Positions 26,740-45,507 of a stretch of 64,000 nt of DNA are shown here, in pieces. Source of the stretch: Persephonella marina EX-H1. Its GTDB lineage: Bacteria; Aquificota; Aquificia; Aquificales; Hydrogenothermaceae. The notes beneath the pieces were generated by a model. It saw only the letters and a program-made list of their open reading frames with translations. It did no database searches and was not told the origin of the DNA. Position numbers and translations under genes: made by a program. The stretch covers positions 1,194,210 through 1,258,209 of the forward strand of contig NC_012440.1 in assembly GCF_000021565.1 (NCBI RefSeq), written 5' to 3'. Numbering within the stretch: position 1 is the stretch's first letter; every line of letters starts with the position of its first letter.

Positions 26740-26766
26740 CTTTCCTAAAGTCAGCTAATAACTGGA

Positions 26767-26771
26767 ATTGT
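26767..26771. repeat. Target-site duplication, tRNA-His side
   Basis: ATTGT directly before the TGTAG terminus; the identical five bases follow the other terminus at 44559-44563. Five-bp duplications are the rule for Tn7-like DDE transposases. Confidence 0.85.
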
Positions 26772-26776
26772 TGTAG

Positions 26777-26837
26777 TTTTTCAGAAAAAATGAGACTTTT
26801 TCAGATAGGTTGAGACTCTTTTCAAATAAATTGAGAC
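26777..26837 (+). repeat. Tandem TnsB-type binding boxes, tRNA-proximal transposon end
   Basis: Three abutting boxes of 20-21 bp: 26777-26796, 26797-26816 and 26817-26837, all TTTTTCA(G)AxAxxxTGAGAC-like and each ending in GAGAC. A fourth weak GAGAC lies at 26852-26856. The tight tandem packing resembles the Tn7 right end. The start codon of the following gene (26842) lies right against the last box, so end-bound TnsB would probably repress it. Confidence 0.8.
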
Positions 26838-26841
26838 TATA

Positions 26842-27948: not shown

Positions 27949-27984
27949 AAGTCAGATAGAGTTGTCTTATATTCTAAATGAATA

Positions 27985-28290
27985 TTAACAAAGGATGTAC
28001 AAGAGCTTTTATCAGAAATATATAGGATGGATGTAAGTTTATCCTTATTTACACAATCACGGACAGACTACTTCTTAGGATACAGGAGAAAAAATAGACC
28101 ATTAAATGGAATATACCCAGTAATCTATACAGCATATTCTGCAAAGTGATGTAGGATGGGAAGTATCCAAAGGATAGTAAATGTTGAAAGCATTAAATGA
28201 TTTAAAAGACAAGGTAGTAGAGGATGTAAAGAAACCTATAGTTTGTTGGGATAGAATATATGTTCAGCTTATTTTCCAGTTTGAGGATAG
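27985..28290 (+). pseudogene. Decayed IS256-family (mutator-type) transposase fragment
   Basis: Frame read from about 27988 gives TKDVQELLSEIYRMDVSLSL, then RTDYFLGYRRKNRPLNGIYP and VIY, matching the IS256-family block that runs [T/S]xDIxxxLxEIYGxxVSxxxIxxITD...WQNRPLxxxYPIxYLDA. After a stop the sequence resumes with MLKALNDLKDKVVEDVK (compare the xLxxLNDLKxRGVEDI block) and, after an internal deletion, WDRIYVQLIFQFEDRI (compare W...NL..FF.FP..IR). Several stops and missing blocks, including the catalytic residues, show it is dead. No terminal inverted repeats are visible. Confidence 0.6.
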
Positions 28291-28641
28291 GATTTAGGAT
28301 ATGGTAAATTTTACACAGTTATATAGACATTCCCCTCCGCATTCCCCATCCCAATTTACATAGCTATACTCCTGCATCTACTTCCTTATTTTGTTCTATC
28401 TTATATATTTTGGTAAACATCCTCTATCTATAAACTTTTTGAGCTATTTGCCACTGATTTTAGTTAATTATTACTTTAGGGAAAATAAGTCTCATATCGA
28501 TATTTCTTAAATCCTATTTTATTGGCTTAATTCCAGAATCAGCATTAATTTTAGCCGATGTTAAATCTTCCATGGTTTACCCAAACTTAGATTTTGCCTT
28601 TCAGGTTATTTAGGAAACTAAATTTTATCTTTCACTCAATC
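28291..28641. other. Non-coding stretch inside the transposon
   Basis: About 350 bp with stops in all frames, lying between the IS256 remnant and the 3' end of the defence operon. A minus-strand reading with KINADSG is faintly reminiscent of IS605 OrfB (INADxNGA) but too short to call. Probably scrap DNA. Confidence 0.4.
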
Positions 28642-29352
28642 TTAAAGATCTTCTAATATAAACTCATTTAACTGTCTTTTATAGGCTTCCCATTTAGGCA
28701 AAAACTTATCCATATAAGCTTTGAATTTTTTATTATGTTTTTTTTCAAAAAAGTGAATCATTTCATGGACTATTATGTATTCCAAACATTCTATTGGTTT
28801 TTTTATAAGTTCCAAGTTTATCCAAATTCTTTTAGCTTCTGGGTTACACGTACCCCATCTTGTTTTCATTTTTTTTATTTTAACTTCGTTAACTTTTATG
28901 CCTATTATTTTCTCCCATTTAGGTATTAAAGTCTCCAGTTCTTTCTTTAACTCTTTTCGAAGCCAGTTTTGATAATAATTTTCTCTCTGCTCTTGTGTAT
29001 AGTGCTTTGGAACATAAAAATATATATATTTTTTATTCTTTATTTCTATCTTGGGTCTTTTTGACTCTTCTATTCTTAAGAGATATCTTTGTCCTTTGAA
29101 ATAATGGCTTTCTCCTGATACATATCTCCTTTTGGTTTGTCTTGATTGAGACTGAAAATTCTTAATATGTTTTTTTATCCAAGGTAGTTTTTTAATAATA
29201 AATAATCTTACTGTTTCATCAGAAACACTTATTGGAACAGATACTCTTACTGTTCCCTCTGGAGGTAAAACATTTAGATGGAAGTTTTTTATATTTTTTT
29301 TATACACTAAAACTTCTAAGTCTTTAACTTTTATTAGTTTTTTCTCTACCAT
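28642..29352 (-). CDS. YgjP-like zinc metallopeptidase (DUF45)
   Basis: Predicted 236-residue zinc protease. The active-site motif is IIVHEMIHFFEKKHNKKF, that is HExxH with a downstream His, and the upstream MKTRWGTCNPEAKRIWINLEL is the conserved RWGSC-type block of the YgjP/DUF45 family. N-terminal half is basic and beta-rich. Two nt after hsdR, in the same operon; members of this family very often end type I restriction-modification operons, though their substrate there is unknown. Confidence 0.88.
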   Translation of the reverse strand: MVEKKLIKVKDLEVLVYKKNIKNFHLNVLPPEGTVRVSVPISVSDETVRLFIIKKLPWIKKHIKNFQSQSRQTKRRYVSGESHYFKGQRYLLRIEESKRPKIEIKNKKYIYFYVPKHYTQEQRENYYQNWLRKELKKELETLIPKWEKIIGIKVNEVKIKKMKTRWGTCNPEAKRIWINLELIKKPIECLEYIIVHEMIHFFEKKHNKKFKAYMDKFLPKWEAYKRQLNEFILEDL

Positions 29353-29353
29353 C

Positions 29354-32300
29354 TTAGTACTCTTCTTGTTTTAAGACTAATTCAAAGATTTTTTCAGTAA
29401 GTTCTCTATTATGTAAAACTTTATAGATTGCATTTTTTATTCTTCGTTCTTTTATTACGTTTCCTCTCCACGAATCTTGTTTAGCATTTATGATTACTTC
29501 ATCTAATTTATTTGTAAGTACTTCTCTGTTTTCAAAACCATCTAAAGCATCGTAAATAGCTCTTTTTGCTTTGCTATCTTTTATACTTTCTGGATAAGGA
29601 TTTTCCTCATCTTCCAATTTTAAAAGCATTTTTGTTAATTTTTCTATTTCTTTTAAATAACTTTCATAATCAATAACTTCTTTTTTTCTTTTGGCTACCA
29701 GTTCCTCTAGTATCTGGGACATTTTTTCATAATAAATAGGATTAACTTCTCTTTCATCTGTTATAAGCTTTCTTATGTTATTTTCTATTACTTCAGCAAT
29801 CGCTTCTTTACTTTTGCCTATGGTTCTTGGAAGCTTTTCAATAGCACTTTTTATTCCTTCTAATGCAACAATTTCTAGCAGAGATGTATCTTCAAATAAA
29901 GCTAATGTTTTGCTTTCTTCTGCACTTATATAGGTATCAATCAGATATCTCATTGCAGGGTCAAATACCTTTAGGTCTAAATAATCACTACTTATTAGTT
30001 TAAGTTCATCTCTTACAGCTGTATAATGTTCTACCTTTTTCTTTATTTCTTCTTGTTCTTTTTTGCTATAACCTATTTCATCAAGCTCATTAGCTACATT
30101 TGTGTATGTTCTGATTAAAGAAGAAACCTTTTTATAAAACTCAAGTCTTAATTGCTGTTTTTTTTCAGAGTTATCGCCAATGAAGTAATCTCTGTATTCA
30201 TTTATACCTTTTGGATGTTTTACGCTCTCCGTTATTAAATCAAGCTGTTCTAATAATTCGTCTAATTTTTTCTTGGCTTCTGTTAGTCTATCTTTTATTA
30301 ATCCTTTTACATCTTCTTTTTCAAATTCAGCAAAAGCTCCAGAAGTATAATCTTTTATAGCTTTTTCCATAGAATTGAATAAATCTCTATAATCAACTAT
30401 ATAGCCATAATCTTTATCAAACTCATCTCCTTTATCTTTATCATCAAGTCTATTTACTCTGCATATTGCTTGAAATAATCCGTGATCCTTCATAGGTTTG
30501 TCTATAAAAAGATAAGTAGCACTTGGAGCATCAAAACCTGTTAAAAGTTTATCTACTACTATTAAAAGTTTCATCTGTCCAGGCTCATCTATAAATTTTT
30601 TCTTTACATCTTTTTCAAACTTATCTATCCAATAATCTTTTACTGCTTCGTCTTCAGAAATATTATAATATTCAGCGATCATCTTTTTATAGACTTCATA
30701 TTTTTTTAGTTGCTCTGCTTCTCCTTCCTCTCCAGTCTCTTCTCCTTTTATACTCGTAATACTTGGTCTGTATGATGTAACTATGGCTAATTTGTTAAAT
30801 CCTTTTGATTTAAAAATTTCATAATACTTACAAGCTTCATATACACTTCCAGCAACAAGCATTGCATTTCCTCTACCTGATGCAAGTCTGGGTCTTATTT
30901 CAAAGTCAAAAATTATATCTGCCACTATTTTTTCCATTCTATCTTTTGAGCTATATAGTTTTTTAAGGGTTCCCCATCTTTGCTTTAACTGGGCTTTAGC
31001 TATATCTGATAAACCTTTAGTTTTAGTTTCAAACCATTTATCAATTTTTTCTTTTGAAACAACCTTTATATCCACATCCCTTGCTTCATATCTCAAATCA
31101 AGAACAACCTCATCATTAACAGCTTCATCAAATTTGTAGGTATGAATATATTTTCCGAATGTTTCTAATGTTGTGGGTTTATCTTTCTTTAAAAGAGGTG
31201 TTCCTGTAAAACCGATGAAAATAGCATTAGGTAAAAACTCTTTCATTGCTTTGTGTAATTTTCCTGATTGAGTTCTATGACATTCATCTACAAAGACAAT
31301 TATATCTCCTTTTGCTTTAAAGTCTTTGGGTAAGTCTTTTCTAAGCGCTTCTATATACTCATCATAATCCTTATCTGTTACCTCAGCTCTACCAAATTTA
31401 TGAATTAAAGAACATATTAGTCTTTCTTCTGTTTTATTAAGTTGATCCAATAAGTCTTTAGCCGATTTTGTTCTATAGATATCTTCGCCCACTCCTTTAA
31501 AAACCTTTTCAATCTGTTCATCAAGTTCAACTCTGTCCGTTATTATTAGAACTCTACCATTTGGATTATTTTCAAGTATCCATTTTGCAAGCCATACCAT
31601 TGTTAAGGATTTACCGCTACCCTGAGTATGCCAGATAATACCCCCTTCTCTTTGCTTTAAACTCCTTTGGGCTGCTTTTACTCCAAAATATTGGTTATGT
31701 CTTGGCAATTTTTTTATTCCAGCATCAAAAACAACAAAATCATGGATTATCTCAAGTAGTCTTTTTTTGTTTAAGAGTCTGTAAATATCACAATCTAAAA
31801 TATTATTAGATTTTTCACATTTATCTCTTGGCAATGTTCTTGGGATATTTTGCTTTTTATTATGGTCAAATTCTGGATTTTCTTCTTTCCATTCTAAATA
31901 ATACCTTTCTGGGGTTTCTATTGTTCCATATCTAAGTCCTTGAGTATCATTTCCAGCCATAACAAGTTGGATTGTTGAAAAAAAGTCCTGTATAAATTCT
32001 TTTTTCTGATTATCTAAATTCTGCCTGATTCCTTCAGATATAGATATCCTTGATCTTTTTAGCTCTAACACTCCAACAGCTATTCCATTTATATAAATCA
32101 CAATATCAGGTCTTTTGGTGTGTTTTCCTTTGATAGTTACTTCTTCAGCTATAGCAAAGTGGTTATTTTCGGGGTTTTCCCAATCGATAAAATCAACATG
32201 AACAGATTGCTCTGAAGGATTTGGTTTAATACTTATACCATATCTTAGTAGGTTGTAAATTTCTTTATTTTTGTCGTATAAACTTTTTTGCTGGTTTGTG

Positions 32301-32515
32301 GCAATTTTTTTTAGTTCGCTTATTGCTTTGTTTATTATTTTATCTTTATAACCTTGCTTTTTTAGAAAGTTAGTTAAATATTCTTCCTCTATATTTGAAC
32401 TATTTTCTCTTTTTTCCCAATTTCCAAGATAATCATATCCTAAGGCTTCTTGAAAAAATTTTACAACTCTATTTTGTGTTTCCCTTTCCCTTTGATTTAC
32501 TTTTATAATTTGCAT
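29354..32515 (-). CDS. hsdR: Type I restriction enzyme, R (motor/nuclease) subunit
   Basis: Translocates and cleaves unmethylated DNA as part of the HsdR2M2S1 complex. The N-terminal nuclease has RPDIVIYINGIAVGVLELK (PD...ExK, Asp137 and E151-L-K153). Superfamily 2 motor: Walker A WHTQGSGKS at 295-303, DECH box VDECHRTQSG at 409-418, GFTGTPL motif III, and a C-terminal helical domain binding HsdM. 1053 aa, full length and unbroken. Lies 2 nt downstream of the ABC ATPase gene and 2 nt upstream of the metallopeptidase. Confidence 0.97.
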   Translation of the reverse strand: MQIIKVNQRERETQNRVVKFFQEALGYDYLGNWEKRENSSNIEEEYLTNFLKKQGYKDKIINKAISELKKIATNQQKSLYDKNKEIYNLLRYGISIKPNPSEQSVHVDFIDWENPENNHFAIAEEVTIKGKHTKRPDIVIYINGIAVGVLELKRSRISISEGIRQNLDNQKKEFIQDFFSTIQLVMAGNDTQGLRYGTIETPERYYLEWKEENPEFDHNKKQNIPRTLPRDKCEKSNNILDCDIYRLLNKKRLLEIIHDFVVFDAGIKKLPRHNQYFGVKAAQRSLKQREGGIIWHTQGSGKSLTMVWLAKWILENNPNGRVLIITDRVELDEQIEKVFKGVGEDIYRTKSAKDLLDQLNKTEERLICSLIHKFGRAEVTDKDYDEYIEALRKDLPKDFKAKGDIIVFVDECHRTQSGKLHKAMKEFLPNAIFIGFTGTPLLKKDKPTTLETFGKYIHTYKFDEAVNDEVVLDLRYEARDVDIKVVSKEKIDKWFETKTKGLSDIAKAQLKQRWGTLKKLYSSKDRMEKIVADIIFDFEIRPRLASGRGNAMLVAGSVYEACKYYEIFKSKGFNKLAIVTSYRPSITSIKGEETGEEGEAEQLKKYEVYKKMIAEYYNISEDEAVKDYWIDKFEKDVKKKFIDEPGQMKLLIVVDKLLTGFDAPSATYLFIDKPMKDHGLFQAICRVNRLDDKDKGDEFDKDYGYIVDYRDLFNSMEKAIKDYTSGAFAEFEKEDVKGLIKDRLTEAKKKLDELLEQLDLITESVKHPKGINEYRDYFIGDNSEKKQQLRLEFYKKVSSLIRTYTNVANELDEIGYSKKEQEEIKKKVEHYTAVRDELKLISSDYLDLKVFDPAMRYLIDTYISAEESKTLALFEDTSLLEIVALEGIKSAIEKLPRTIGKSKEAIAEVIENNIRKLITDEREVNPIYYEKMSQILEELVAKRKKEVIDYESYLKEIEKLTKMLLKLEDEENPYPESIKDSKAKRAIYDALDGFENREVLTNKLDEVIINAKQDSWRGNVIKERRIKNAIYKVLHNRELTEKIFELVLKQEEY

Positions 32516-32517
32516 TT

Positions 32518-34743
32518 TTACTCCCTTAGTAATAAAGAAATATCTTCTGCATATAATTTTTTTAGTTCACCAATACTAACATCTACCAATGGCTCATACA
32601 TAAAAGCATTTATATGGATATACTCAGGAGTTATAATTAAAACTCTTTCTAATTTTTTCAATGTTTCGCTGTCATTTGAAATTTCTCTAAATCTCTCAAA
32701 CAAATATCTTGTAAATTTCCATTCATTTTCATCAATGTCGTTATTTAATTTGCTTAACATATACTTTTCTGCTTTCAATCTTGTTGCTATAGCCAAAACA
32801 ATCTTACCTTCTAGTTTTATATGGTTATCCCTATCATTTTTTATTATATCTGTTATATTAAATATCATCTCATATATATTTGTATTTAATTCTTCATTTG
32901 TAAATAAACTTGCAAAAAGATTACTTACATCGAAATTCTTAATATACTTTTCATAAATCTCTTTTAAATCCTTAAGCTTTATATTTTTACTTGGTTTATA
33001 ATGCAGACAGTATGTTAATTTTTTGTAATCTTCGCTGCTTTTTCCTTCAATATACTCTGCTAAATTCCTAATAAATGGAATTGTAGCTATAAAAATTTTT
33101 TTTGCATTTTTTTTATTTGTCCCAGAAGAACCATTTGCAAAATTTTCTAAATATTTTTTCCATTCCTCGAAGGGATTAGAAATTTCTTTTAGGTCATTTA
33201 GTTTGATTTTACCATTTGGTAATCTGTTTGCGATTTTACATTTATTTTTATTTACAATTATTCTACTTCTTATAGTTCTAAAAAAGTCAAAATTATGAGT
33301 TAAGATAATAATGTAAAAATTTTCATATTCTGCAATTTCTTTGAGATATTCAATAATTGCATATTTGTTCTTATAATCAAATGAGTCTGCAATATCATCT
33401 ATTATTATTATTGTATCCTTGCCTGATTTTTTTTGAGCCTCTAAGTCAAAAATAATGTCTAATAAATATAAAGCTCTTTTTTCTCCATTGCTTAATTTTG
33501 ATATGAGATTTTTTTTGTCGTTGTATTCTTTCTTATCTTCTCCGTCTTTAAAAATAAATTTTATACTCGGAACATCCTGTTTAAGGATAACTTCTTCTTT
33601 ATTCTCTATAGCCAATTCAAAAGGCATATCTATAAACTTATTATTAAAAATCTCTATTATCTTTTCCCAATCTGTTTCTTCATTGCGAGCTTTCTCTAAG
33701 AGGTTATTTAAATCTTCTTTGTATTTATTGTATTTTTCAATAAAATTTAATGATGACTCTTTTAGTTTTATCAAGTATGAAAGCCAAATTTTCTCTTTAA
33801 ATTTTTTCAAATTTTCAAATTCTACTATTATTTTGGGATTTTTTCGTAGTATAGAACGAAAATTTCTTAGTTTTTGGTTCCTATTTAAACCCTTGTCTAT
33901 TTTTTCAAATATACTTTTTAATTCTTCATTTTCTAAGATTTTTTTCTTTTGTTCTTCTAAGAACTTATTTAACTCTTTTTCATTATTAAACTCTTCTTTA
34001 TTAGTTCCATTTGATAAGCTAATGGTATGTCCTGCTTTAAAAAAATTGTTTCCTTTGAGACTTTTTATAACTTCATTGGCATTATAATGGTCAAAATTTT
34101 CTCTAAAGTATGGTGATTTATTGATAAGTTCTTTATACTTTTTTATATAATCTTCTATATGTTTCTTCACGTCCTTATTGCTTAAAAGATTTAAAACATC
34201 ATTATTAAAAATGTCTGAATATACCAACTCTGAATACTTAGAATAATTATCATCTTTTTCTTTTAATTTTTTATCAATTTCAGTAAGAAAATCTTCTAAA
34301 CTTTTATTAAATTCTTCTTTGAAAATATTTTCAATGTCTTTAGGTTTTACTTTTGAAATATTACTTAGTTCTTTTATCAATATATTTTTTTCATCTTTAA
34401 AATCTTTATAAATTTTATCATAATTAGCTCTTAACTTTTTACTTGCTAACAAAACGGAAATACTTTTAGAAGCATAATCTTCATTATATGATTCAATAAC
34501 AAATACATTTTCCCGATTTAAATCTTCACCATTTAGTTTTAATTCAACCTTAGTTTCTCTGTGTGGAAAATGTAAATCTTTTGTCTCTTTTTTTTCTGAA
34601 TAATCTTTAAAAGTTTTAGCAAAAGAGGTTTTCATTGTCCCATTTGGTGCATATATTGCAAAAACTCTGCCATTTTCGAAGTTAAACTCATAATCTAATT
34701 TTCTTATTCCATAACAATTTTCGAGTTTCACCTTCAATATCAT
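32518..34743 (-). CDS. ABC-type ATPase embedded in the restriction-modification operon
   Basis: A 741-residue protein with ABC/SMC-like ATPase halves around a long helical middle. Walker A is IYAPNGTMKTSFAKTF (32-40), unusual in having TMKT where GSGKT/S is normal; the ABC signature is LSNGEKRAL, Walker B IIIIDDIADSFD, and the switch His lies in ILTHNFDFFR. The C-terminus carries NAFMYEPLVDVSIGELKKLY. The layout recalls RloC/PrrC-like and other defence ATPases, but no nuclease motif can be assigned. Start chosen at 34743 (8 nt after GGGAGG), overlapping hsdS by 56 nt, so it is coupled to the specificity subunit. Probable phage-defence component; mechanism unknown. Confidence 0.75.
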   Translation of the reverse strand: MILKVKLENCYGIRKLDYEFNFENGRVFAIYAPNGTMKTSFAKTFKDYSEKKETKDLHFPHRETKVELKLNGEDLNRENVFVIESYNEDYASKSISVLLASKKLRANYDKIYKDFKDEKNILIKELSNISKVKPKDIENIFKEEFNKSLEDFLTEIDKKLKEKDDNYSKYSELVYSDIFNNDVLNLLSNKDVKKHIEDYIKKYKELINKSPYFRENFDHYNANEVIKSLKGNNFFKAGHTISLSNGTNKEEFNNEKELNKFLEEQKKKILENEELKSIFEKIDKGLNRNQKLRNFRSILRKNPKIIVEFENLKKFKEKIWLSYLIKLKESSLNFIEKYNKYKEDLNNLLEKARNEETDWEKIIEIFNNKFIDMPFELAIENKEEVILKQDVPSIKFIFKDGEDKKEYNDKKNLISKLSNGEKRALYLLDIIFDLEAQKKSGKDTIIIIDDIADSFDYKNKYAIIEYLKEIAEYENFYIIILTHNFDFFRTIRSRIIVNKNKCKIANRLPNGKIKLNDLKEISNPFEEWKKYLENFANGSSGTNKKNAKKIFIATIPFIRNLAEYIEGKSSEDYKKLTYCLHYKPSKNIKLKDLKEIYEKYIKNFDVSNLFASLFTNEELNTNIYEMIFNITDIIKNDRDNHIKLEGKIVLAIATRLKAEKYMLSKLNNDIDENEWKFTRYLFERFREISNDSETLKKLERVLIITPEYIHINAFMYEPLVDVSIGELKKLYAEDISLLLRE

Positions 34744-36052
34744 TATTTTTTCCCTCCCCATTATTTATAGTTTTTAATCTAACCTTTCCAGTCAAAAGAA
34801 GCTCCATAGCTCCTTTTTTAATTTGTTCGTATTTTTCTTTTTTCTTTTTAAGGGCTTCTATTTCGGCATCCATATCTGAAAGGATTTTAGCAATGGCTTG
34901 TTGTTCTTCAAGGGTTGGGGGAATATATATTGATAGTTCTTTAACACTATCTATTTTTAAATTATTAACTCCAGAGCCTGCGGCTAATAGGTCAAAACTT
35001 TTTTGAACTTTATAGGAAGATAATAGATAATAAAAAAATTCAATGTTTTGTTTTCCCTTTCTTTTTAATAATAACCAACCATCATGGATACAACCTTTAA
35101 TTTTACTTATATATGGTCTACCATAACTCATTGAGTTAGATAAAATTAAATCATTATAGTTCACAACTACTGATTGTTTAGCTCCTTCTTGAGTTATCTT
35201 AATTTCGGTTTTTACCAAATATTTATCTTCAGGCTTAACATCGCTTATTTTAATCCAATTGATACCATTGCTTTTTTTCGTAATATACTTTTCTATAGGT
35301 CTTGGTGAAGCTCCTCTTTTTATATCAAAAACTTCCCCTAATTTCATCTTAACCCATTTACCCTTAAACCCTTGAAGTCTTTTTTTTCCTGTTAGAAGCT
35401 CCTGCATTGCTCCTTTTTTGATGAGTTTCTTTTTTTCTATGAGTTTATCAAGGCTTTCTATAAGGTTATCAATATCACTTAAAACTTTAGCTATATCTTT
35501 TTGTTCGGGGAGGGGTGGGAGAGGTAGTAAAAGATTTGATAATTGATATTGTGAAAGTGTTGGTATGGCTTGACCATCTAAAACTTTATTTAATAAATTT
35601 TTAAAAGTAAAAGAATTCAAGTAAAAATTAATAAATTTATTATTAGTCCTTTTGAAAACCTTTATTATTACTAACTGTGGATTTATTGTAGTAGGAAATA
35701 CGACTTTTTCAATAATAGCTACTTTACCCAAAGTTGAACCTGTCTTTACAAATATAATATCCCCTGTTTTAATTTTTATTTCAGGGGATTCTTCATATTT
35801 ATTCCATGAAACAAATGTTAGATTTGATTTTAAATTTAGCTTACCATCTACTATATTAATAGGACTCAAAGAAATAGCACCTCTCCAAGGCTTTACAATA
35901 TCCTTTTTTGTATATCCTCTAAAGCCTATTCTCCCTACAATTTTTGAAACTTCTCCCAACCTCTTAACTTCCCAATCCTCTGGAATAATCCCTATTTCAG
36001 TTTTTTTATATCCTGTTGGTATTTTATTATTCATTATTTTTTCCTCTATCAA
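34688..36052 (-). CDS. hsdS: Type I restriction-modification specificity subunit
   Basis: DNA-recognition subunit with two target-recognition domains. Repeat 1 opens YKKTEIGIIPEDWEVKRLGE and ends LPPLPEQKDIAKVLSDID...KKGAMQELLTGKKRL; repeat 2 opens GKWVKMKLGEVFDIKRG and ends IPPTLEEQQAIAKILSDMD...KKGAMELLLTGKVRL, the two conserved spacer helices. The frame continues about 28 residues past the usual TGKVRL end, reading through the ATPase start, so the original stop may have been lost. It begins within the 3' end of the HEPN gene (26-nt overlap). The recognition sequence cannot be predicted. Confidence 0.95.
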   Translation of the reverse strand: MIEEKIMNNKIPTGYKKTEIGIIPEDWEVKRLGEVSKIVGRIGFRGYTKKDIVKPWRGAISLSPINIVDGKLNLKSNLTFVSWNKYEESPEIKIKTGDIIFVKTGSTLGKVAIIEKVVFPTTINPQLVIIKVFKRTNNKFINFYLNSFTFKNLLNKVLDGQAIPTLSQYQLSNLLLPLPPLPEQKDIAKVLSDIDNLIESLDKLIEKKKLIKKGAMQELLTGKKRLQGFKGKWVKMKLGEVFDIKRGASPRPIEKYITKKSNGINWIKISDVKPEDKYLVKTEIKITQEGAKQSVVVNYNDLILSNSMSYGRPYISKIKGCIHDGWLLLKRKGKQNIEFFYYLLSSYKVQKSFDLLAAGSGVNNLKIDSVKELSIYIPPTLEEQQAIAKILSDMDAEIEALKKKKEKYEQIKKGAMELLLTGKVRLKTINNGEGKNNDIEGETRKLLWNKKIRL

Positions 36053-36797
36053 TTAATTCATAAGCCAAACTTGCCAAAACTATATAATGAATAGCCAAAT
36101 TTTTATCTATTTTATAAGCAGGTGTGTGAACCTTTTCATTGCGAAAAAATTGAATTGCCATGTGTAAAAATTTTACTCCTTCAAAAAAATCCCTTTCAGT
36201 TTCGTTTTGAGGTGAATGTCCAAAAATCTTTTCATAATTTTGTTCTCTAAATGCTTCTGTTGCTCTTTCTTTGCCTGTAATCTCTCTTAATTTTTCTCTT
36301 ACAATTTTAAAAGACTCTTCAACAGCATGAAAATAATGTCCGTCTGCTAATAATTCCTTGACATGAGCAAAAACTTTATTGTTTAGAACTATATTGATAT
36401 TTCCATTAATTATGTTTGCTTCTAAATTCGATACTTCTTTATTTAAATCAATAATATTGTTATCTAATTTTTTAGCTATTTTATAAGCCGCCTTTATTAA
36501 CTCATCGGGATAATTTTCTTTTTTGAAATCACCTATTAAAATTTTATGCTCAATGTATTCTATTAGCTTTATAATACTTTTGGCCACTGTTTTGTTGTCT
36601 TCAATTCTCCAGAAAGCACGTAATCTATTTGCTTTAGAACCTGAGCGATAATTGTATTTGTCATCAAATATATTAACGTTAAGCTCTTCTTTAAAAAATT
36701 CCTCCATTGATAAATTGCTAAAATCTGAGACATATCCATCACCCATTTCAAAAAGTTTTTCTAAAACCTGTTTATCAAAGGTGTTTAAATTTGCCAT
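36027..36797 (-). CDS. AbiJ-like protein with C-terminal HEPN (TIGR02391-type) domain
   Basis: A 256-residue soluble protein. Residues 1-80 (KLFEMGDGYVSDFSNLSMEE, NIFDDKYNYRSGSKANRLRA) resemble the N-terminal domain found in AbiJ-type abortive-infection proteins. The C-terminal part (about 140-250: HVKELLADGHYFHAVEESFK ... FFRNEKVHTPA) is a TIGR02391/Ymh-like domain and carries RNEKVH at 219-224, an RxxxxH HEPN ribonuclease motif. It sits between hsdM and hsdS, 10 nt after hsdM, so it is an inbuilt part of the operon. A back-up suicide RNase triggered when restriction fails is a reasonable guess, not shown. Confidence 0.72.
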   Translation of the reverse strand: MANLNTFDKQVLEKLFEMGDGYVSDFSNLSMEEFFKEELNVNIFDDKYNYRSGSKANRLRAFWRIEDNKTVAKSIIKLIEYIEHKILIGDFKKENYPDELIKAAYKIAKKLDNNIIDLNKEVSNLEANIINGNINIVLNNKVFAHVKELLADGHYFHAVEESFKIVREKLREITGKERATEAFREQNYEKIFGHSPQNETERDFFEGVKFLHMAIQFFRNEKVHTPAYKIDKNLAIHYIVLASLAYELIDRGKNNE

Positions 36798-36807
36798 TTT
36801 ATCCTAC

Positions 36808-39504
36808 CTAAAAACTAAATCCCATTGTTTTTAAATGCTCTTTTACTTTTTGCTCGTATTCTTCTGCTTCTTTCTCAATTTCAGGTAATGGATTTTCGTA
36901 TCTTTCATAAAGTTCTTTTATTCTATTAATCAGTTTCATAATTAATTCTTCAATCTCATCATTTACCGCTTCTTTTAAAGATTTCAACCATTTTTTATTT
37001 ATTACTAAATCTCTAACTTCTTCCTGTGTAAAACTTTTATACTTTTCAAGAAGTTTTTTATCAAGCTCTTTTTCTTTCTCTTTTATCTCTTTCTTAAGAT
37101 CTGCCTCTTTTTCTAAAAGGTTTAGGTATTTTTCTAAAATACTAATCTCTTTTAAAAATTCTCTATTAGTATCTTTTGCTATTAAATTTTGAGTTTTTTC
37201 CTCAAGTTCATTTTTTAAACTTTTAATTTCTTTCTTTTTATCTTTTATGACTTTTAAAATTTCTAAGAGTTCGTTTAGAAGTTTTTTTTCTTTCTCATCA
37301 GAAGTAGTTTTAGCTTTTTCTTTTAAATACTTTTGAGAAAGCTCTTTTTTAGAGAAAATACCTAAAGAATGGGCTAATTCCAATTTGTTTAGCATTAATA
37401 TCTCCAATTCTTTTTCAAGTCCTAATAATTGATTATATTCATCTTCGAAATATTCCTCCCACGCTAATCTTTTAAAATCTTCTAAATTTTCTAAAACATC
37501 AGATTTTTTCTCTACCTCAAATAACGCTTCATCTTCTCCAGAATTTTCTTCTTTTAACTCTTCTCTTTGTCTGATAATTTCATCTTTTTGTGCTTCCAAG
37601 CTTTCAATTTCTTCTTTTTCTTCTTTGAAAAATTCATTTATAACAATATCTTTTGGCAAAATATCACAAGTCCAACCTTTGTCTATTTCTTTACCTTTCT
37701 TGTTCTTCTCTATTATTCTATAAGGTTCTGCAACCCAGCCTTTTTCAATAATCATATAGATATCATCTTTTATTGTTTCATCCCAGTAATCCATAAGAAT
37801 TTGATAAATTGCATACTCATCAATCAGATTTAAAGGTTTATAAAATTCAAGTAAACTTTCTGAAATAGTTTTGATAAACTCTTTTGGATGAGTGTTTTTA
37901 TCAATTCCTGTTAAAATAGGCATATTTTCATCTGTCCATTTTTCAAATACTGCTAAAGCATGTGATTTGAACTCTTTCACTTCTTCCGCATTTTCTATGA
38001 TTTCTGTTAAGTTATCAATATCAACATTCAAAGTGTAATAACCTTCTTCTTTTTTTCTAAATAACCGATTTTTTAAATCATTAAAAACATTTAAAATTTC
38101 TATCTTGTCTATATCCCTTTTTGGAATGCCTCCATGTAAATGTGCATAAATATCTTGAATATCTTCTTTTTCTGTACTTTCAATATATCTTGGAATATTT
38201 AAGTTGTAGTCATTTTTCTCAATCTCCTCAAGGCTTACCATACGGGAATAGCCAGGGATTTCTTTAAAATTAACAAATGTATCTACAATTTTATGAATAT
38301 CCCTTTCTCTTAATCTGTTTTTGTTTCCGTCTTTCCTGTATCCCTTAGATGCATCAATTATAAAAATTCCTTTTCTTGCTTGAGCATTTTTTTTGTCTAT
38401 TACTAAAATAACAGCAGGAATACCAGTTCCATAAAATAGGTTTGGAGGCAAGCCTATAATACCCTTTATATATCCTTTTTTAATCAAATTCTTTCTAATC
38501 TCAGCTTCAGCATTCCCTCTAAATAAAACACCATGAGGCAAAATAATTGCACCTTTTCCTTTAGACTTTAGAGACTTTATAAAATGAAGTAGAAAAGCAT
38601 AATCTCCATTTTTAGCTGGAGGAACTCCATCGTCAAATCTGTGGTATTGGTCATTTTTTACATTAACACCATCCATCCAGTTTTTTTGTGAAAATGGTGG
38701 ATTTGCAACTGCAAAATCAAATGTTTTTAAACTTCCATCAGGATTTTTAAATTTAGGGTGTGATAATGTATTCCCTTGTGCTATTTCCGCATCAGGTCTT
38801 CCGTGCAGTATCATATTCATTCTTGCAATATTAGCTACATTTATATCTATTTCTTGTCCGTAAAGGGATATTTTTACAGGAGCTTCATCTGCTACTTTTA
38901 AAAGCAGAGAACCACTTCCACAAGTTGGGTCGTATGCTGTTTGGTCTGGTGAGGTTGCTTTTTCAACACCGATAATTTTAGCCATTACTCTTGATACTTC
39001 AGCAGGAGTGTAAAACTGTCCTTTGCTTTTACCTGCTTCTGTTGCAAATTTCTTCATAAAGTATTCATATACGTCACCGAGGATATCGTCTCCATCCGAT
39101 CTGTTTCTTGAAAAATTAAGCTCTGGATTTTCAAAAATACCTATAAGCTTTGTTAATCTATCAACCTTTTCTTTTCCAGTGCCAAGCTTTGTATCATCAT
39201 CAAAATCAACTATATCTATCACACCCTTTAAACCATTTTCTTCAGCTAATTTTGATAAAACTATATTTATTCTTTCTCCAATATTTTTTTTACCTTTTGC
39301 TTCTATTAAATCGTCAAAGCTTCCACCTTCAGGAACTATAAATCCATCTTCATTATAAGGGTCTCCTTTGTATTTGTCTGTTACATACTTAACAAATAGG
39401 ATAGTTAATACATAGTCTTTATACTGGCTTGCATCCATTCCCCCTCTGAGTGCATTTGCAGCCTCCCAAAGATGATTGTAAAGTTGTGTTTTCTTGATTG
39501 CCAA
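36808..39504 (-). CDS. hsdM: Type I restriction-modification methyltransferase, long form
   Basis: N6-adenine methyltransferase of the type I complex. HsdM N-terminal helical domain (LWEAANALRGGMDASQYKDY), then GQFYTPAEVSRVM at 162-174, SAM-binding DPTCGSGSLLLKV at 192-204 and catalytic NPPFSQKNW at 268-276. At 898 aa it is far longer than the usual 500: from about 590 a Lys/Glu-rich coiled coil runs to the end. This enlarged type is known but uncommon. The TTG start at 39504 follows AGGAGGG. First gene of the hsdM-HEPN-hsdS-ATPase-hsdR-YgjP operon. Confidence 0.95.
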   Translation of the reverse strand: MAIKKTQLYNHLWEAANALRGGMDASQYKDYVLTILFVKYVTDKYKGDPYNEDGFIVPEGGSFDDLIEAKGKKNIGERINIVLSKLAEENGLKGVIDIVDFDDDTKLGTGKEKVDRLTKLIGIFENPELNFSRNRSDGDDILGDVYEYFMKKFATEAGKSKGQFYTPAEVSRVMAKIIGVEKATSPDQTAYDPTCGSGSLLLKVADEAPVKISLYGQEIDINVANIARMNMILHGRPDAEIAQGNTLSHPKFKNPDGSLKTFDFAVANPPFSQKNWMDGVNVKNDQYHRFDDGVPPAKNGDYAFLLHFIKSLKSKGKGAIILPHGVLFRGNAEAEIRKNLIKKGYIKGIIGLPPNLFYGTGIPAVILVIDKKNAQARKGIFIIDASKGYRKDGNKNRLRERDIHKIVDTFVNFKEIPGYSRMVSLEEIEKNDYNLNIPRYIESTEKEDIQDIYAHLHGGIPKRDIDKIEILNVFNDLKNRLFRKKEEGYYTLNVDIDNLTEIIENAEEVKEFKSHALAVFEKWTDENMPILTGIDKNTHPKEFIKTISESLLEFYKPLNLIDEYAIYQILMDYWDETIKDDIYMIIEKGWVAEPYRIIEKNKKGKEIDKGWTCDILPKDIVINEFFKEEKEEIESLEAQKDEIIRQREELKEENSGEDEALFEVEKKSDVLENLEDFKRLAWEEYFEDEYNQLLGLEKELEILMLNKLELAHSLGIFSKKELSQKYLKEKAKTTSDEKEKKLLNELLEILKVIKDKKKEIKSLKNELEEKTQNLIAKDTNREFLKEISILEKYLNLLEKEADLKKEIKEKEKELDKKLLEKYKSFTQEEVRDLVINKKWLKSLKEAVNDEIEELIMKLINRIKELYERYENPLPEIEKEAEEYEQKVKEHLKTMGFSF

Positions 39505-39764
39505 GATTTAAACCCTCCTATTTCTTGGTACTTGAAAAACTCCCATTTCTACAGGTGAATTGTTTCAATACAATCTAAAATTATGATATTACATCATGTT
39601 AAGAATCATGTCTATTTTTCCTTCTGTATTACTTTTCCTTTAAATTTCAATTTAAAATTATTTTAACCAAAATGGCCATAAACGTATACCCTCGCTATGT
39701 GTTTCACATAGTATAATTTCTGTATCTACTATAAATAATCATCCGGATTTTCAATAACTTCGTA
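39505..39764. promoter_or_regulatory. Intergenic region before hsdM with hairpin and operator-like palindromes
   Basis: Holds the hsdM promoter region. A 7-bp hairpin CTATGTG-TTT-CACATAG lies at 39695-39711, about 54 nt after tniQ; no T-run follows on the minus strand, so it is not a clear terminator. Nearer hsdM are ATTGT-N6-ACAAT and ATGAT-N5-ATCAT inverted repeats that could be operators. No C-protein-like regulator gene is seen. Confidence 0.4.
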
Positions 39765-40934
39765 TCAAAGCTCTACGGTTCTTCTTTTATCTAAATAACA
39801 ATCAAACATTTTAGATAATTTTTTGTAGCTTGGTTTTATTCCTTTTTTCTTTAAATATTTAACTGCACTTTTAATTTCTTCATCCGTTGGGAAATAATGT
39901 TTATTACTAAATTGTTTAATAAGCTCATCATACCAGAAAGGAATGTATTCAATACCTCTGTTTAGAAATGGAAATCCTATTTTATTATCTTTAATATATT
40001 TTTCAAAACTATCTTTACTTTTAAATATCTCCATAGCTACTGTGAATAAAATATAGTGTTCTTTTATAGATAGATCTTCTAGAAATCTTTTCTTTTTGTT
40101 TTTCTCTTCGGGAAGTTGGATATTTAATAAATGAGATTCTTCGTTTAGTAATTCGATTGTTCGGAAATTATAAAAATATAAAAATCTTAAAACTTGCTTA
40201 AGTATAGGAAAAAAGAAAATAGATAAAATGGGTTTTCCTTCAAATATAAAAACTCCTGATTCCAATATTTCATTTATTTTCTGTATATTTTTGAAACCAC
40301 TCGATAATTTGGATACATACTTGATAGGAGACTGACTAAAAGAAAATCCACATTTATGACAGTGATATTCTTTTATATCATATTTTCTTTTGTTTGGAGA
40401 AAATACTTCTCCACATTCTGGACAGTTATCGTATAAAAAACATTTATGCTTTAAACAAATTGTAGAAAAAGATAACCTCCAGTATTTTTTTAAATATTGT
40501 TCTTTACTTTCTTTTAAACATAAAGGACAAAATCTTATCGCTTTTTTTATAGCTCTTCCTTTTCTAAATCTCGGCTGTAAAATAAATAAATTTCTGTTTG
40601 ATTTATTTAAATTTATAAACAGGTATCCTTCATACGATTTTAATGTCATACCTAAAAAGTCTTCTTTTTTATAATAGGTTTTAGAAACTAACTGTTTAAT
40701 AAAATTTTCATTGATCCCAACTAAATCAATATCTCTGTGAAATATATGTCTATCAAAATTATAAAAATATAAAGATATAAAAGCTGGAGGGTTCATATAG
40801 TGAGCATAAGCCTCTCTTAATAGCCATGAAGATAAAAGCTCATTTTTTAATGGCTTTAGTCTTATTGGAAATTTAGAGTTTTTATGTTTGAAAGTATTTG
40901 AGTAAGATGATTGGCTTTTAAAATAATCTCCCAA
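39765..40934 (-). CDS. tniQ: TniQ/TnsD-like target-selection protein
   Basis: Chooses the insertion site for the Tn7-like transposase. 389 aa with the TniQ opening PIRLKPLKNELLSSWLLREAY and the double zinc ribbon: C136, C139, C160, H163, C171, C174, C192 and C195. The C-terminal region (PTDEEIKSAVKYLKKKGIKP) reads like a helix-turn-helix DNA-binding segment, as in TnsD-type proteins that read a fixed chromosomal site; here that would be the tRNA-His locus. Shorter than Tn7 TnsD (about 500). Start is TTG at 40934. Last of the tnsABC-tniQ run. Confidence 0.9.
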   Translation of the reverse strand: MGDYFKSQSSYSNTFKHKNSKFPIRLKPLKNELLSSWLLREAYAHYMNPPAFISLYFYNFDRHIFHRDIDLVGINENFIKQLVSKTYYKKEDFLGMTLKSYEGYLFINLNKSNRNLFILQPRFRKGRAIKKAIRFCPLCLKESKEQYLKKYWRLSFSTICLKHKCFLYDNCPECGEVFSPNKRKYDIKEYHCHKCGFSFSQSPIKYVSKLSSGFKNIQKINEILESGVFIFEGKPILSIFFFPILKQVLRFLYFYNFRTIELLNEESHLLNIQLPEEKNKKKRFLEDLSIKEHYILFTVAMEIFKSKDSFEKYIKDNKIGFPFLNRGIEYIPFWYDELIKQFSNKHYFPTDEEIKSAVKYLKKKGIKPSYKKLSKMFDCYLDKRRTVEL

Positions 40935-40951
40935 TTTTATAAATTCCTATA

Positions 40952-41863
40952 TTAATTTAAATGTATAATATCTCTACTTTGTGATAATGGAATATAATCA
41001 ATTTCCTTTAAATCTTCCTCAGATATTTTTTCTTTTCCAGTCTTTATAGCATTTATTGCCATTAGATTTACTATTTCTACAATTTCACCTATTAATCCTT
41101 CACTATAAGTTAGTATCTTATTAGCTAATTGCATATTTTTGTGAATATAAGAAGGTTTTCTTAAAGGAAGAGTCTTCTCTAAAGAGAGTAATAATCCTAT
41201 GTAATTTTTATTAAATGACCATCTCTCCAAATAGACGGGTCTAAATCTACTGCTTATCTGTTTGTCAGTACTAACGGCATTAACTGCTTCTATTATTCCT
41301 GCTAAAACTATAGGAATTTTTAAAATATTTGATAAGTTTTTTATAGCATTCATAAACTCTCGCTGTTTACTGAAATTTCCGCTTAAAATATTGTGAATTT
41401 CATCAATTATTAGCATTCTTACTTTGAAAACTTTAAAGAAATATACGATTTTTTCTTCTTGTAAAGATAAAGTTTCGCTCTTCCTTACTTCAATATTCAA
41501 GCTCATAAATATGTAATTATACAAAGCCTTAATATCGGGTCTGGGTGGAGCTTGAACCATAACAACAGGGATTTGTGCTGCTTCTATTTCCTCAATAGGA
41601 GGATTTAAATCATGGAATTTTTTGATAATACTTGTTTTTCCATTATTACTCTCTCCTACTAATAGTAAATTAGGCATTCTGCTTCTTGGAGGTTCGTTCA
41701 TTAAATTATTTAATTTCTCTATAATTCTTTTTGCCTTTGGGTAATAAACAAACTTTTCGCTTTTAATGTAATTAATTCTTATTTTATCCGATGCATATAA
41801 CTTTTCTTTTGTTTTTTTCTCTAGAAACTTTAGGTACTCTTTATCAAAATCATAAAGACCCAT
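40952..41863 (-). CDS. tnsC: TnsC/TniB-like AAA+ transposition regulator
   Basis: ATP-dependent link between target selector and transposase. Walker A GESNNGKTS at 70-78, Walker B LIIDEIHN at 151-158, followed by the sensor region IPIVLAGIIEA. At 303 aa it is TniB-sized rather than Tn7 TnsC-sized (555), so it lacks the large extensions of Tn7 TnsC. Starts behind AGGAG, 4 nt after the tnsB stop. Confidence 0.92.
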   Translation of the reverse strand: MGLYDFDKEYLKFLEKKTKEKLYASDKIRINYIKSEKFVYYPKAKRIIEKLNNLMNEPPRSRMPNLLLVGESNNGKTSIIKKFHDLNPPIEEIEAAQIPVVMVQAPPRPDIKALYNYIFMSLNIEVRKSETLSLQEEKIVYFFKVFKVRMLIIDEIHNILSGNFSKQREFMNAIKNLSNILKIPIVLAGIIEAVNAVSTDKQISSRFRPVYLERWSFNKNYIGLLLSLEKTLPLRKPSYIHKNMQLANKILTYSEGLIGEIVEIVNLMAINAIKTGKEKISEEDLKEIDYIPLSQSRDIIHLN

Positions 41864-41867
41864 GATA

Positions 41868-43727
41868 TTATTCTCCTATATCAATATCAAAGTTTGGAAT
41901 ATTATCTAAATCAAAATCTACATTTAAATTAGTATCTTTTTTCTGAGTATTATTGCTACTTCCTAAGTATTCTTTCCTATTTTCTAAATAATTTTTAGAT
42001 GACTTCTTACGGCGTACTTTTTTAGATTTTTTTACAGCCTCCTTTTCTATTTCTCTAAGTTTTTTAAATTCTTTAAAAATATTAACTTCATTCTTTTGAT
42101 CAATTTTTTTCTTAGACAAATATTTCTTAACCTGTTTTAACTCTGAGAGAGTTATTTTAGGATTGAGTGTATTCCTATAAGGTATTTCAAAATAATGTTC
42201 TATGGAAGAATCCCATAAATAAATTTTACTTAAGTCCATAGGGTCGTATTTTATTGTATATTTTTTATTCCTTTCGAGATTTATGTATTTTTTCAAGCTT
42301 TCACTGAAATATTTTATTCCAAATAAACTAATACCATCTTTTTGTATACTTCTATATACAGTTGGTAATAATGATATTCTTATTCTTTCAATTTCATCTG
42401 TAGGTATTATTGGAGGTAGTCCTATACTTCTATTTTTTTCATCAAAAATACCTTTTTTATATTTTTCTTCAGGAGATATACCTAAAGATGAATGCTTCTT
42501 TTTATGATATATGTTCACAATATAACTAGCTATGTATTTCTCAAGTTCAAATAACGTATAAGCAGAATGCTTTTCTGAGTTATAATTCTCCCTATAGGTT
42601 TTATTGGAAAATGTTGTACCTGGTAGATTGTGCATTTCCTCATTAAGAGTTCTCATAAATCTTTCTATATGTCCTCCAAAATGAGGAGATCCTTTAGGTC
42701 TATAGTTTATTTCGATTTGATACATATCACAAAAATCCTTTAATGCTCGACTGTGAAATTCTTTTGCATTATCTAAATGTAAAGACTTAGGAACACCGTA
42801 TATAATCCACGCACCTTCTATTCCTAATTTTTCTAAATATTCTTCTTTAGTAGATATACCTAGCATTAATAATTGACCTATTGAAAAGACACTTGGGAAT
42901 TCTAATGAAATAAAAAAACTGTAAACCATTCTACTATATATATCCATAGCTATAGTTATCCAAGGTCTGCCTACAGGTTGCCTGTGTATTTCATCTACTA
43001 CAATTATGTCAAGTAAAGTATGATCTATTTGAATAACTTCTAAGGGGAAATTTACTTCAAAACTTTTTTCAGAGCTTTTAAACTTACTTAAGTATTTAGT
43101 TTTTCCATACCTTTTTTTACATACTTCTTGTTTATCAAGGTCATTAGCTCTTCTCCAAACAGTGGAAAGGGATGGAGGTTTTAAGTTGTTTTCTTCACAA
43201 AAGATACATATTTCATTATAAATTCTACTAATAGAATATTTTTGCTTTGACAAGTACTTTTCTTTTAGAAAGAGTTGAATTATATCTTCTACTTCATCAT
43301 TAAATTTGGTTTTTCTTTTTTTTAAAAAACATCTATTTGGAACTAATGATTCTAAAGATTCTGTTTTTTCAAAACTCTTTATCCATCTGTAAAGTGTAGA
43401 CACAGATAAATTGAATTCTTTTGCCCTTTTTATTACATCTTTTTTACAACGTGAACTGGTTAAAAGTGGTTTTATAATTTCATACCTTCTTTTTGCTATT
43501 TCAAATTCTTTTGATGATTTGTCTGAAAACTCACTATTTACTATCTTATTAAATTTATTCTTAAGATTTTCATCGTATGGTTCTATATCTTTAACCTTTA
43601 TTATTTCTGAGATTCCATTTTCTAAATCCTTAGCTATGACACTTTGTAAATCAGATTTAAAAGATAAGATCTCATAAAGTTTATCCTTATATAAAAACTT
43701 AGTTCCTTGCTTAATGGATATTTTCAT
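41868..43727 (-). CDS. tnsB: TnsB/TniA-like DDE transposase
   Basis: Cuts and joins the transposon 3' ends. 619 aa: N-terminal helix-turn-helix domains (SSRCKKDVIKRAKEFNLSVS, TLYRWIKSF) that bind the end boxes, then an integrase-like core with Asp235 (IQIDHT), Asp319 (HLDNAKEF) and Glu355 (HFGGHIER), all three catalytic residues intact, and a basic C-terminus for TnsC contact. ATG follows AAGGAG. The tnsA-coded 3' end lies 10 nt upstream. Confidence 0.95.
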   Translation of the reverse strand: MKISIKQGTKFLYKDKLYEILSFKSDLQSVIAKDLENGISEIIKVKDIEPYDENLKNKFNKIVNSEFSDKSSKEFEIAKRRYEIIKPLLTSSRCKKDVIKRAKEFNLSVSTLYRWIKSFEKTESLESLVPNRCFLKKRKTKFNDEVEDIIQLFLKEKYLSKQKYSISRIYNEICIFCEENNLKPPSLSTVWRRANDLDKQEVCKKRYGKTKYLSKFKSSEKSFEVNFPLEVIQIDHTLLDIIVVDEIHRQPVGRPWITIAMDIYSRMVYSFFISLEFPSVFSIGQLLMLGISTKEEYLEKLGIEGAWIIYGVPKSLHLDNAKEFHSRALKDFCDMYQIEINYRPKGSPHFGGHIERFMRTLNEEMHNLPGTTFSNKTYRENYNSEKHSAYTLFELEKYIASYIVNIYHKKKHSSLGISPEEKYKKGIFDEKNRSIGLPPIIPTDEIERIRISLLPTVYRSIQKDGISLFGIKYFSESLKKYINLERNKKYTIKYDPMDLSKIYLWDSSIEHYFEIPYRNTLNPKITLSELKQVKKYLSKKKIDQKNEVNIFKEFKKLREIEKEAVKKSKKVRRKKSSKNYLENRKEYLGSSNNTQKKDTNLNVDFDLDNIPNFDIDIGE

Positions 43728-43736
43728 GGCGTCTCC

Positions 43737-44365
43737 TTATTGTAGAAACAAAACAGAATCTACGGACAGTTCCTTTCGTAAGTTTGTCCTCAATTCTTTT
43801 TTGTATAATAGAAACCAAATAACGGGTAATACTTTGCTTTTTTCTTCTATCTGAAGTAAATCTTTTATTGATTTACTACCGTACTTTGATAGAAAACAAA
43901 AAATTTTTCCACTAATATCATCAAAATTTTCTGGTTTGATTCTGTGTAATCTCAAAAACTCTATATTCTTCAACAGAGTCTCATTTAGATCTTCATCAGT
44001 AAAAACTTTAAATTCATAACCGTTTTTTAGACAATAACTTTTTATAGTTTCTAATTTATTAATTAATTTCTTATCTCCCTTATCTATTTCACTCTTATAT
44101 TTTATTTTATTTCTCCTATAACTTCTTTTCCGTTCTTATAGATGATATAAACATCAGGTATATATATAACTTTTCTGTTATTAACTTCACCTAGAATCTC
44201 TATAGGTTGTTCTATATATTTATCTACATTTTCATCATACTCTAACATTAGGAATATTTTTTTCTCCAGTTGAGATTCAAATTCTACTCGTCTATTATTT
44301 TTTATACTAAAAAATGAACCTGCTACAGAACGTGACTGGATAGGAATTTTTCTAATTTTTTGCAT
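43737..44365 (-). pseudogene. tnsA: TnsA endonuclease, interrupted by a -1 frameshift
   Basis: TnsA cuts the 5' strands so that transposition is cut-and-paste. The first 87 residues carry the nuclease triad: Glu in VEFESQLEKK, Asp in IYIPDVYI and ExK in GEIK, then stop at TAA near 44102. Reading shifted by -1 at the A-rich ATAAAATAAAATA continues without a break as KYKSEIDKGDKKLINKLE ... NETLLKNIEFLRLHRIKPEN ... to 43737, the winged-helix C-terminal domain that contacts TnsC. Joined, the product would be about 210 aa, normal for TnsA. Either a recent inactivating indel, a sequencing error in an A-run, or frameshifting. Confidence 0.8.
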
Positions 44366-44558
44366 AGCTATAACCTATACAAACTCTTTTTAATTCTTAA
44401 GCTTAAAGGTAAAGTCTCAAACGAAAAGTTGCAAGCTTTCTGAAAAAGATAAGTGTAGTTTCAATGTTTTTGAAAAAAGTCTCAATTCTTATGAAAAAAA
44501 ATTACGATAAATAGATATTTAGATCATAATTTGGTATCATTATATGTGAAAAACTACA
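44366..44558. repeat. Distal transposon end with spaced TnsB-type boxes
   Basis: Boxes in inverse orientation: 44414-44433 (GTCTCAAACGAAAAG, partial), 44458-44477 and 44479-44498 (GTYTCAATxxTTxTGAAAAA), and a terminal box at 44534-44553, ending ACTACA at 44558. The roughly 35-bp gap before the terminal box makes this the spaced, Tn7-left-like end. The tnsA start is only about 50 bp inside the innermost box, so TnsB binding may autoregulate the tns genes. Confidence 0.75.
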
Positions 44559-44563
44559 ATTGT
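44559..44563. repeat. Target-site duplication, distal side
   Basis: ATTGT, identical to 26767-26771, between the ACTACA terminus and the relic end that starts at 44564. Confidence 0.85.
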
Positions 44564-44608
44564 TGTAGTTTTTCAGAAAATATGAAACTTTTTCAGATAG
44601 ATTGAAAC
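44564..44608 (+). repeat. Relic of a second transposon end (same type as the tRNA-proximal end)
   Basis: Forty-one of 45 bases equal the first 45 bases of the element (26772-26816), including TGTAGTTTTTCAG and two boxes; both boxes read GAAAC in place of GAGAC. The third box and the rest are missing. It points the same way as the tRNA-proximal end, so before the present insertion it lay exactly 33 nt from tRNA-His. Confidence 0.85.
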
Positions 44609-44736
44609 CTTATTTATCTATTCCATAAATCCACTTTTTAAGTCCAAGAATCATTAATCTATTCTAAGTATTTTTAATATTGTAAATTTCCATCAAGTTA
44701 TAATGTGTATGTACATCATAATTTAGGGGGACTGAT

Positions 44737-44992
44737 TTGAAGAGAACCCAGATTTACTTAGATGAAGATATTTATAACTATTTAAAAGCCGAAAGTAAAA
44801 AAAACGGGAAAAACTATATCCGAAATTATAAGAGAAAAGCTCAGAGCAGAAATAAGCCAGACTAAAGAAAATCTTATAAAAACAATTGATGAAGTAGCTG
44901 GAATATGGAAAGATAGAACTGAAGATATTGAAAAAACAGTGAGAGATTTAGGGAAGAGAAGAAGAATAAAAAATTCTGAAATAAGTCTATAA
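44737..44992 (+). pseudogene. Frameshifted ribbon-helix-helix antitoxin gene (VapB/CopG-like)
   Basis: TTG at 44737 behind AGGGGG begins LKRTQIYLDEDIYNYLKAES, the beta strand and first helix of an RHH antitoxin. One extra base in the A-run around 44784-44806 shifts the frame; the other frame continues TISEIIREKLRAEI ... EVAGIWKDRTEDIEKTVRDL and ends at 44992. The GIWKDR tail is typical of VapB partners of PIN toxins, but no toxin gene follows. Probably left over from the earlier element or its neighbour. Confidence 0.65.
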
Positions 44993-45096
44993 TTAAAACT
45001 TACTATAGCTTAAACAATCTCACTCCATGAACTTCCTATCATGCCCTTAAAACTGATAAAATATTAATGTTAAAAAAATTTCAGACAGGAGATATT

Positions 45097-45507
45097 ATGA
45101 GAAAGTTAGCTGTTGCTCTAGGACTGCTGGTTTTTGTGATAACAGGTTGTGCACAATTCCAGACAATGACATCTAAGGAACCTGTTCAGCTTGTTGCTAA
45201 AACAGAAAACTTAGGCAGATACAGTTTTGTAGTTCCTGCCAACTTCAAGTTTAAAGAGAACTACTCGTTCATATTTGAGAACAATGGTGATGTTAGAGCT
45301 TATCTGATATACATGGGTAAAGGATCTGTTGCAAAGCTTGTAGATTTCTTTGATAAGAACATGCCTAAAAAAGGATGGAATCCGGATGTCTCACTTGTAG
45401 GGAAGACTGCTGTTCTTTCATACACAAAGGATAACAAGCTCATCATTATGAAAATAGAGCCGCATATGGGATTTACATACCTTAAGGTTATGCTTACAAC
45501 ACAGTAA
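45097..45507 (+). CDS. Small exported lipoprotein of unknown function
   Basis: 136 residues from the ATG at 45097 (behind AGGAG); a longer frame from 45067 lacks a signal. MRKLAVALGLLVFVITGC is a lipoprotein signal with the lipid-modified Cys at 18. The mature domain (LGRYSFVVPANFKFKENYSF ... GSVAKLVDFFDKNMPKKGW) is a small alpha/beta fold seen in other uncharacterised Aquificota lipoproteins. Codon use is core-like, so it is the native neighbour beyond the transposon site. Confidence 0.75.
   Translation: MRKLAVALGLLVFVITGCAQFQTMTSKEPVQLVAKTENLGRYSFVVPANFKFKENYSFIFENNGDVRAYLIYMGKGSVAKLVDFFDKNMPKKGWNPDVSLVGKTAVLSYTKDNKLIIMKIEPHMGFTYLKVMLTTQ

Follow-up and report, generated by a model that had tools for sequence, protein, structure and literature searches.

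A single insertion point downstream of the tRNA-His gene of Persephonella marina EX-H1 has probably been colonized twice, by an older, related element that inserted at the identical base and decayed, and later by the Tn7-like element that now occupies the site. This reading draws on direct observations in the window (the whole 64,000-nucleotide stretch of DNA analyzed) and in related genomes: the geometry of the site, the identity between a relic end and an intact end, the extra DNA behind the relic, and the empty arrangement in relatives. The locus clearly illustrates an already known type of event, the reuse of an attachment site.

The Tn7-like Element Downstream of tRNA-His

The attachment region and the present element are organized as follows.

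26667 to 26740, plus strand: tRNA-His (GTG), presumed attachment gene (ARAGORN)
26767 to 26771, unstranded: ATTGT, proximal copy of the 5-bp target site duplication (TSD), read from the sequence
26772 to 44558, unstranded: present Tn7-like element, 17,787 bp, delimited by termini, TSD and genes
26772 to 26838, plus strand: intact tRNA-proximal end, with three consensus TnsB-type boxes (26778, 26798 and 26819) and a weaker fourth behind
29354 to 39504, minus strand: cargo, a type I restriction-modification locus (hsdR, an AAA_13/PDC-S46 protein, hsdS, a Ymh-domain protein and hsdM; Pfam and PADLOC)
39765 to 40934, minus strand: tniQ (TnsD-like, presumed target selector; Pfam PF06527, 9.7e-31)
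40952 to 41863, minus strand: tnsC (TniB family ATPase; Pfam PF05621, 2.3e-74)
41868 to 43727, minus strand: tnsB transposase, reading frame intact, catalytic D, D and E conserved with relatives
43737 to 44365, minus strand: tnsA, with one frameshift
44428 to 44558, minus strand: intact distal end, with boxes at 44428, 44458 (GAAAC) and 44479 and a weak terminal box at 44534
44559 to 44563, unstranded: ATTGT, distal TSD copy and border common to the present element and the relic, read from the sequence

The termini read TGTAGTTTTTC starting at 26772 and GAAAAACTACA finishing at 44558. The element has the ends of a Tn7-like transposon, namely a 5-bp TSD, TGT...ACA termini and arrays of TnsB sites of about 20 bp, together with the corresponding proteins: a TnsC ATPase, a TniQ/TnsD protein and a TnsB that is a DDE transposase with a Mu-type C-terminal domain (PF09299, 1.9e-11), in which D235, D319 and E355 are conserved in the alignment. 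When a 19-nt weight matrix built on the six intact boxes was scored over the 64-kb window, these boxes reached 24.2-26.5; outside them and the two boxes of the relic described below, the top score was 12.9, shared by the weak box in the intact distal end and a single site elsewhere.

The frames of tniQ, tnsC and tnsB are all intact. The tnsA gene is split into frames at 44102-44365 and 43737-44111, the break falling just past a GEIK motif. With weak scores, the upstream frame resembles positions 1-49 of Pfam TnsA_N (PF08722), and the downstream frame resembles positions 48-85 and TnsA_C (PF08721). Programmed frameshifting is thought unlikely because, by our own reading, a slippery heptamer is absent at the shift point. 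If the frameshift is real, the present element would be inactive or limited to a replicative pathway, and its current activity is therefore uncertain.

Restriction-modification systems, the type of locus carried here, are the commonest defense cargo in a survey of Tn7-like elements (PMC8649781). The AAA_13-type protein encoded between hsdS and hsdR (32518-34761) is a strong match to the candidate defense family PDC-S46 in PADLOC. A 368-aa open frame (26842-27948) starts inside the proximal end, overlapping the weaker fourth box, and Pfam and PADLOC returned no match for it.

A Relic End Abutting the Distal Target Site Duplication

Directly behind the distal ATTGT lies a second copy of the tRNA-proximal end.

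44564 to 44608, plus strand: relic tRNA-proximal end of an older element, comprising the terminus and two boxes (44570 and 44590), 41/45 identical to 26772-26816

The sequence-only reading had reported this copy, with 41/45 identity and in the same orientation, and both inspection of the sequence and BLAST confirm it. From 44564 the relic reads TGTAGTTTTTCAGAAAATATGAAACTTTTTCAGATAGATTGAAAC and aligns ungapped with the proximal end, differing at positions 18, 23, 38 and 43; three of the four differences are G-to-A changes. It includes the terminus and, of the three TnsB-type boxes, the first two, in register and abutting the target duplication, and the identity collapses abruptly past position 45. 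The two boxes score 20.4 and 25.6 with the weight matrix. In genome-wide BLAST, the relic has an E-value of 1.5e-14 when ATTGT is included with the end and of 4.3e-11 when the query is just the 45 bp. Across the genome (1,983,966 bases on two contigs), only the proximal end and the relic match the end in full, so the sequence is not one that is common in the genome outside transposons. Judged by the E-values, the genomic uniqueness and the box scores, the relic is a genuine transposon end, not a chance repeat.

A weight-matrix box scan of 44609-45100 recognized neither the opposite end of the older element nor an outer second ATTGT, and a complete second end pair, as a simple duplication would leave, was not found. 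The sequence GAAAAACTATA at 44808 was considered as the distal end of the older element and rejected, as it belongs to an antitoxin coding sequence. Because a matching opposite end and an outer TSD are absent, the relic is classed as a remnant and not as an element, and the abrupt end of its similarity directly after the second box calls for a deletion or rearrangement. That just 45 bp remain, with an outer end not found, could suggest a stray fragment or a chance resemblance in place of an insertion footprint. This is extremely improbable: the E-values of 1e-11 to 1e-14 refute chance resemblance, and the exact abutment on the TSD, the periodicity of the boxes and the presence of additional DNA where relatives have an empty site all argue against a stray fragment.

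DNA behind the Relic and the Native Flank

The sequence between the relic and the next conserved gene is divided as follows.

44609 to 45053, unstranded: non-native DNA behind the relic, about 445 bp, presumed interior of the older element, absent at this place in ten relatives
44738 to 44992, plus strand: degenerate antitoxin gene of the RHH (ribbon-helix-helix) type, frameshifted, toxin partner absent
45054 to 45096, unstranded: probable native spacer after the target site, at a distance of 43 nt from the lipoprotein start that sister-genus genomes share
45097 to 45507, plus strand: lipoprotein-like gene, located directly behind tRNA-His in relatives

In ten relatives, nine from the sister genus (g7) and one from g10, tRNA-His is followed by the small lipoprotein gene after a gap of about 20-60 nt; in the window, the start codon of this gene lies 489 nt past the last base of the relic. 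Native-like sequence appears to resume at 45054, where the window reads TGATAAAATATTAATG and the G014 group, after its ATTGT, reads TTATAATATATAAATG; the two agree at 13/16 positions, and each begins 43 nt upstream of the lipoprotein start. A match of this quality at a distance-matched place has p ~0.0008 under a Markov null, the comparison being post hoc. The antitoxin remnant shares 71-76% DNA identity with intact antitoxin genes dispersed through the rest of the family and is without counterpart in the present element, with which the 445 bp behind the relic share only short chance matches. Because the antitoxin is absent from the present element and native-like sequence resumes at 45054, the foreign DNA probably spans 26772 to 45053, its last 490 bp (44564-45053) being separate from the present element.

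The same border could have formed from a tandem copy of one element. Either a replicative, TnsA-deficient insertion, a cointegrate that was never resolved, or a circle whose ends are joined by ATTGT would have produced two directly repeated copies, the outer one then being deleted to its first 45 bp. The frameshift in tnsA would favor such a replicative pathway, the ATTGT border fits it equally well, and three G-to-A changes among four differences are expected for drift from an identical end. However, the 445 bp behind the relic do not derive from the present element, which lacks the antitoxin (though cargo can change), and differences at 4 of 45 positions require a long time, yet tnsB stays intact. 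Both boxes are also changed at the same position, for which the random chance is about 0.07 given three G-to-A changes among ten G. A tandem copy is thus an unlikely origin of the relic, and two successive insertions are the preferred reading.

GAAAC Boxes and Target Immunity

The sequence-only reading had proposed that two elements used the same site to the base, the later one landing at the border of the earlier, and that GAAAC in the relic boxes might mark a different TnsB lineage. The first proposal is upheld by the geometry, the foreign cargo behind the relic and the empty site in ten relatives; the second is not. Under it, the GAAAC boxes of the older element would be invisible to the present TnsB and immunity would be inactive. 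Both relic boxes do read GAAAC. One box in the intact distal end of the present element (44458-44476, minus strand) has it as well, as had been remarked correctly, and on this ground GAAAC was rejected as a lineage mark. The three G-to-A changes are of the kind expected of decay, and the chance of a same-position change in both boxes is too weak a figure for a lineage claim. The relic end is otherwise 91% identical to the present one, which suggests that the same or a very close TnsB acted on both, because relatives with about 42% identical TnsB, the comM-type elements, show visibly different end sequences.

An element with GAAAC-type ends, which the proposal would lead one to expect among relatives, was not found in family genomes or in the genome-contig and viral-contig collections. 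With the end as query, 41 family genomes gave only chance-level matches outside the genome itself; DNA pattern scans for similar ends found none in the genome-contig collection and two contigs, probably by chance, in the viral-contig collection. Taken together, two distinct TnsB lineages are a quite improbable explanation of the double occupancy.

In prototype Tn7, target immunity relies on the binding of TnsB to end sequences. A stump of two boxes, which lacks most of the end, would give little or no immunity, and a special escape is needless if the older element had already been reduced to such a stump. Escape through a lineage difference is a guess; that the older element had decayed beforehand is the simpler account. 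It is rather unlikely that, of two elements with nearly identical ends, the older was still whole when the later one inserted at the same base, which would imply a family without effective immunity or a distinct specificity of the older TnsB. Target immunity is reviewed in PMC11406308, and repeated insertion of CAST elements at the same locus upon long incubation is cited in PMC12452197.

Two Probable Insertions at One Base

The ARAGORN end of the tRNA gene (26740) lies 26 nt from ATTGT and 31 nt from the present element; a distance of 33 nt, given earlier, is correct when counted from base 73 to the first base of the element. The insertion point downstream of the tRNA gene occupies a position that would fit direction by TniQ, and it was apparently used twice at the same base. 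tRNA genes are established TniQ-targeted attachment sites for Tn7-like elements (PMC11406308). With tRNA-His as attachment gene, the TnsD-like TniQ would bind there and set a fixed insertion distance downstream. The older element would have inserted with its box-dense end facing the tRNA, duplicating ATTGT, and decay would then have left of it the proximal terminus with two TnsB boxes and some 445 bp, the antitoxin fragment among them. The present element would later have entered at those five bases again, separating the older end from the tRNA, so that the locus now runs tRNA, ATTGT, present element, ATTGT, remnant of the older element with its end first, native flank. With the insertion distance set from the tRNA, a later element is bound to land on the tRNA side of its predecessor, and this is the order observed. 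We infer this order of events, the targeting of tRNA-His by TniQ and the decay of the older element before the second insertion.

Two insertions at one base would be evidence from nature that the distance between tRNA-His and the insertion point is set from the tRNA to the exact base, and the relic is a concrete piece of DNA with which to ask how much of an end target immunity needs; otherwise, the locus is a case of ordinary attachment-site reuse. If the two-insertion history is true, an intact older element would carry the antitoxin as its first cargo and would be followed by ATTGT and TGATAAAATATT.

Comparison with Known Systems

Within the phylum, TnsB relatives with about 38-44% identity occur in five genomes (G007, G033, G131, G079 and G085). 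In three Aquificota genomes, comM is split by Tn7-like elements (L084/L085 in G007, L086 in G033 and L118 in G131). Those TnsB relatives whose location could be established lie within comM, and no relative element was found at tRNA-His; TnsB scans of the genome-contig and viral-contig collections yielded no confirmed relatives. Literature searches on Tn7-like double insertions at tRNA sites turned up nothing beyond general remarks about target immunity and insertions next to one another.

The present element resembles the tRNA-attached branch of Tn7-like elements that gave rise to type I-B2 and I-D CASTs (PMC11406308) in its tnsABC and tniQ genes, 5-bp TSD, apparently fixed distance downstream of a tRNA gene and defense cargo. 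It differs in that tnsA and tnsB are separate here but fused there, tnsA is frameshifted, CRISPR genes are absent among the identified genes, the host belongs to Aquificota and the attachment gene is tRNA-His. The comM-inserted Aquificota elements (G007/G033 and G131) share its gene order, with 41-44% identity in TnsB and 37-42% in TniQ, whereas their insertion site is comM and the end sequences of those examined differ from those in the window.

Adjacent or internal Tn7-like insertions that give extra ends are on record in PMC8649781, which cites earlier work. The locus is like the adjacent and nested elements with multiple left and right ends described there in that insertion occurred at or beside an older element, but here just one end of the older one is left and the insertion points coincide to the base. 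On the Nitrosophilus labii plasmid pHRV44, two tnsA-tnsB sets follow each other (L132:9101-15929), with a TnsB 41% identical to that of the window. The second set starts directly behind the apparently shortened tnsB of the first, as if one Tn7-like element had entered another. There the insertion appears to lie inside a transposase gene of the plasmid, whereas the present element and the relic in the window stand side by side at a tRNA gene.
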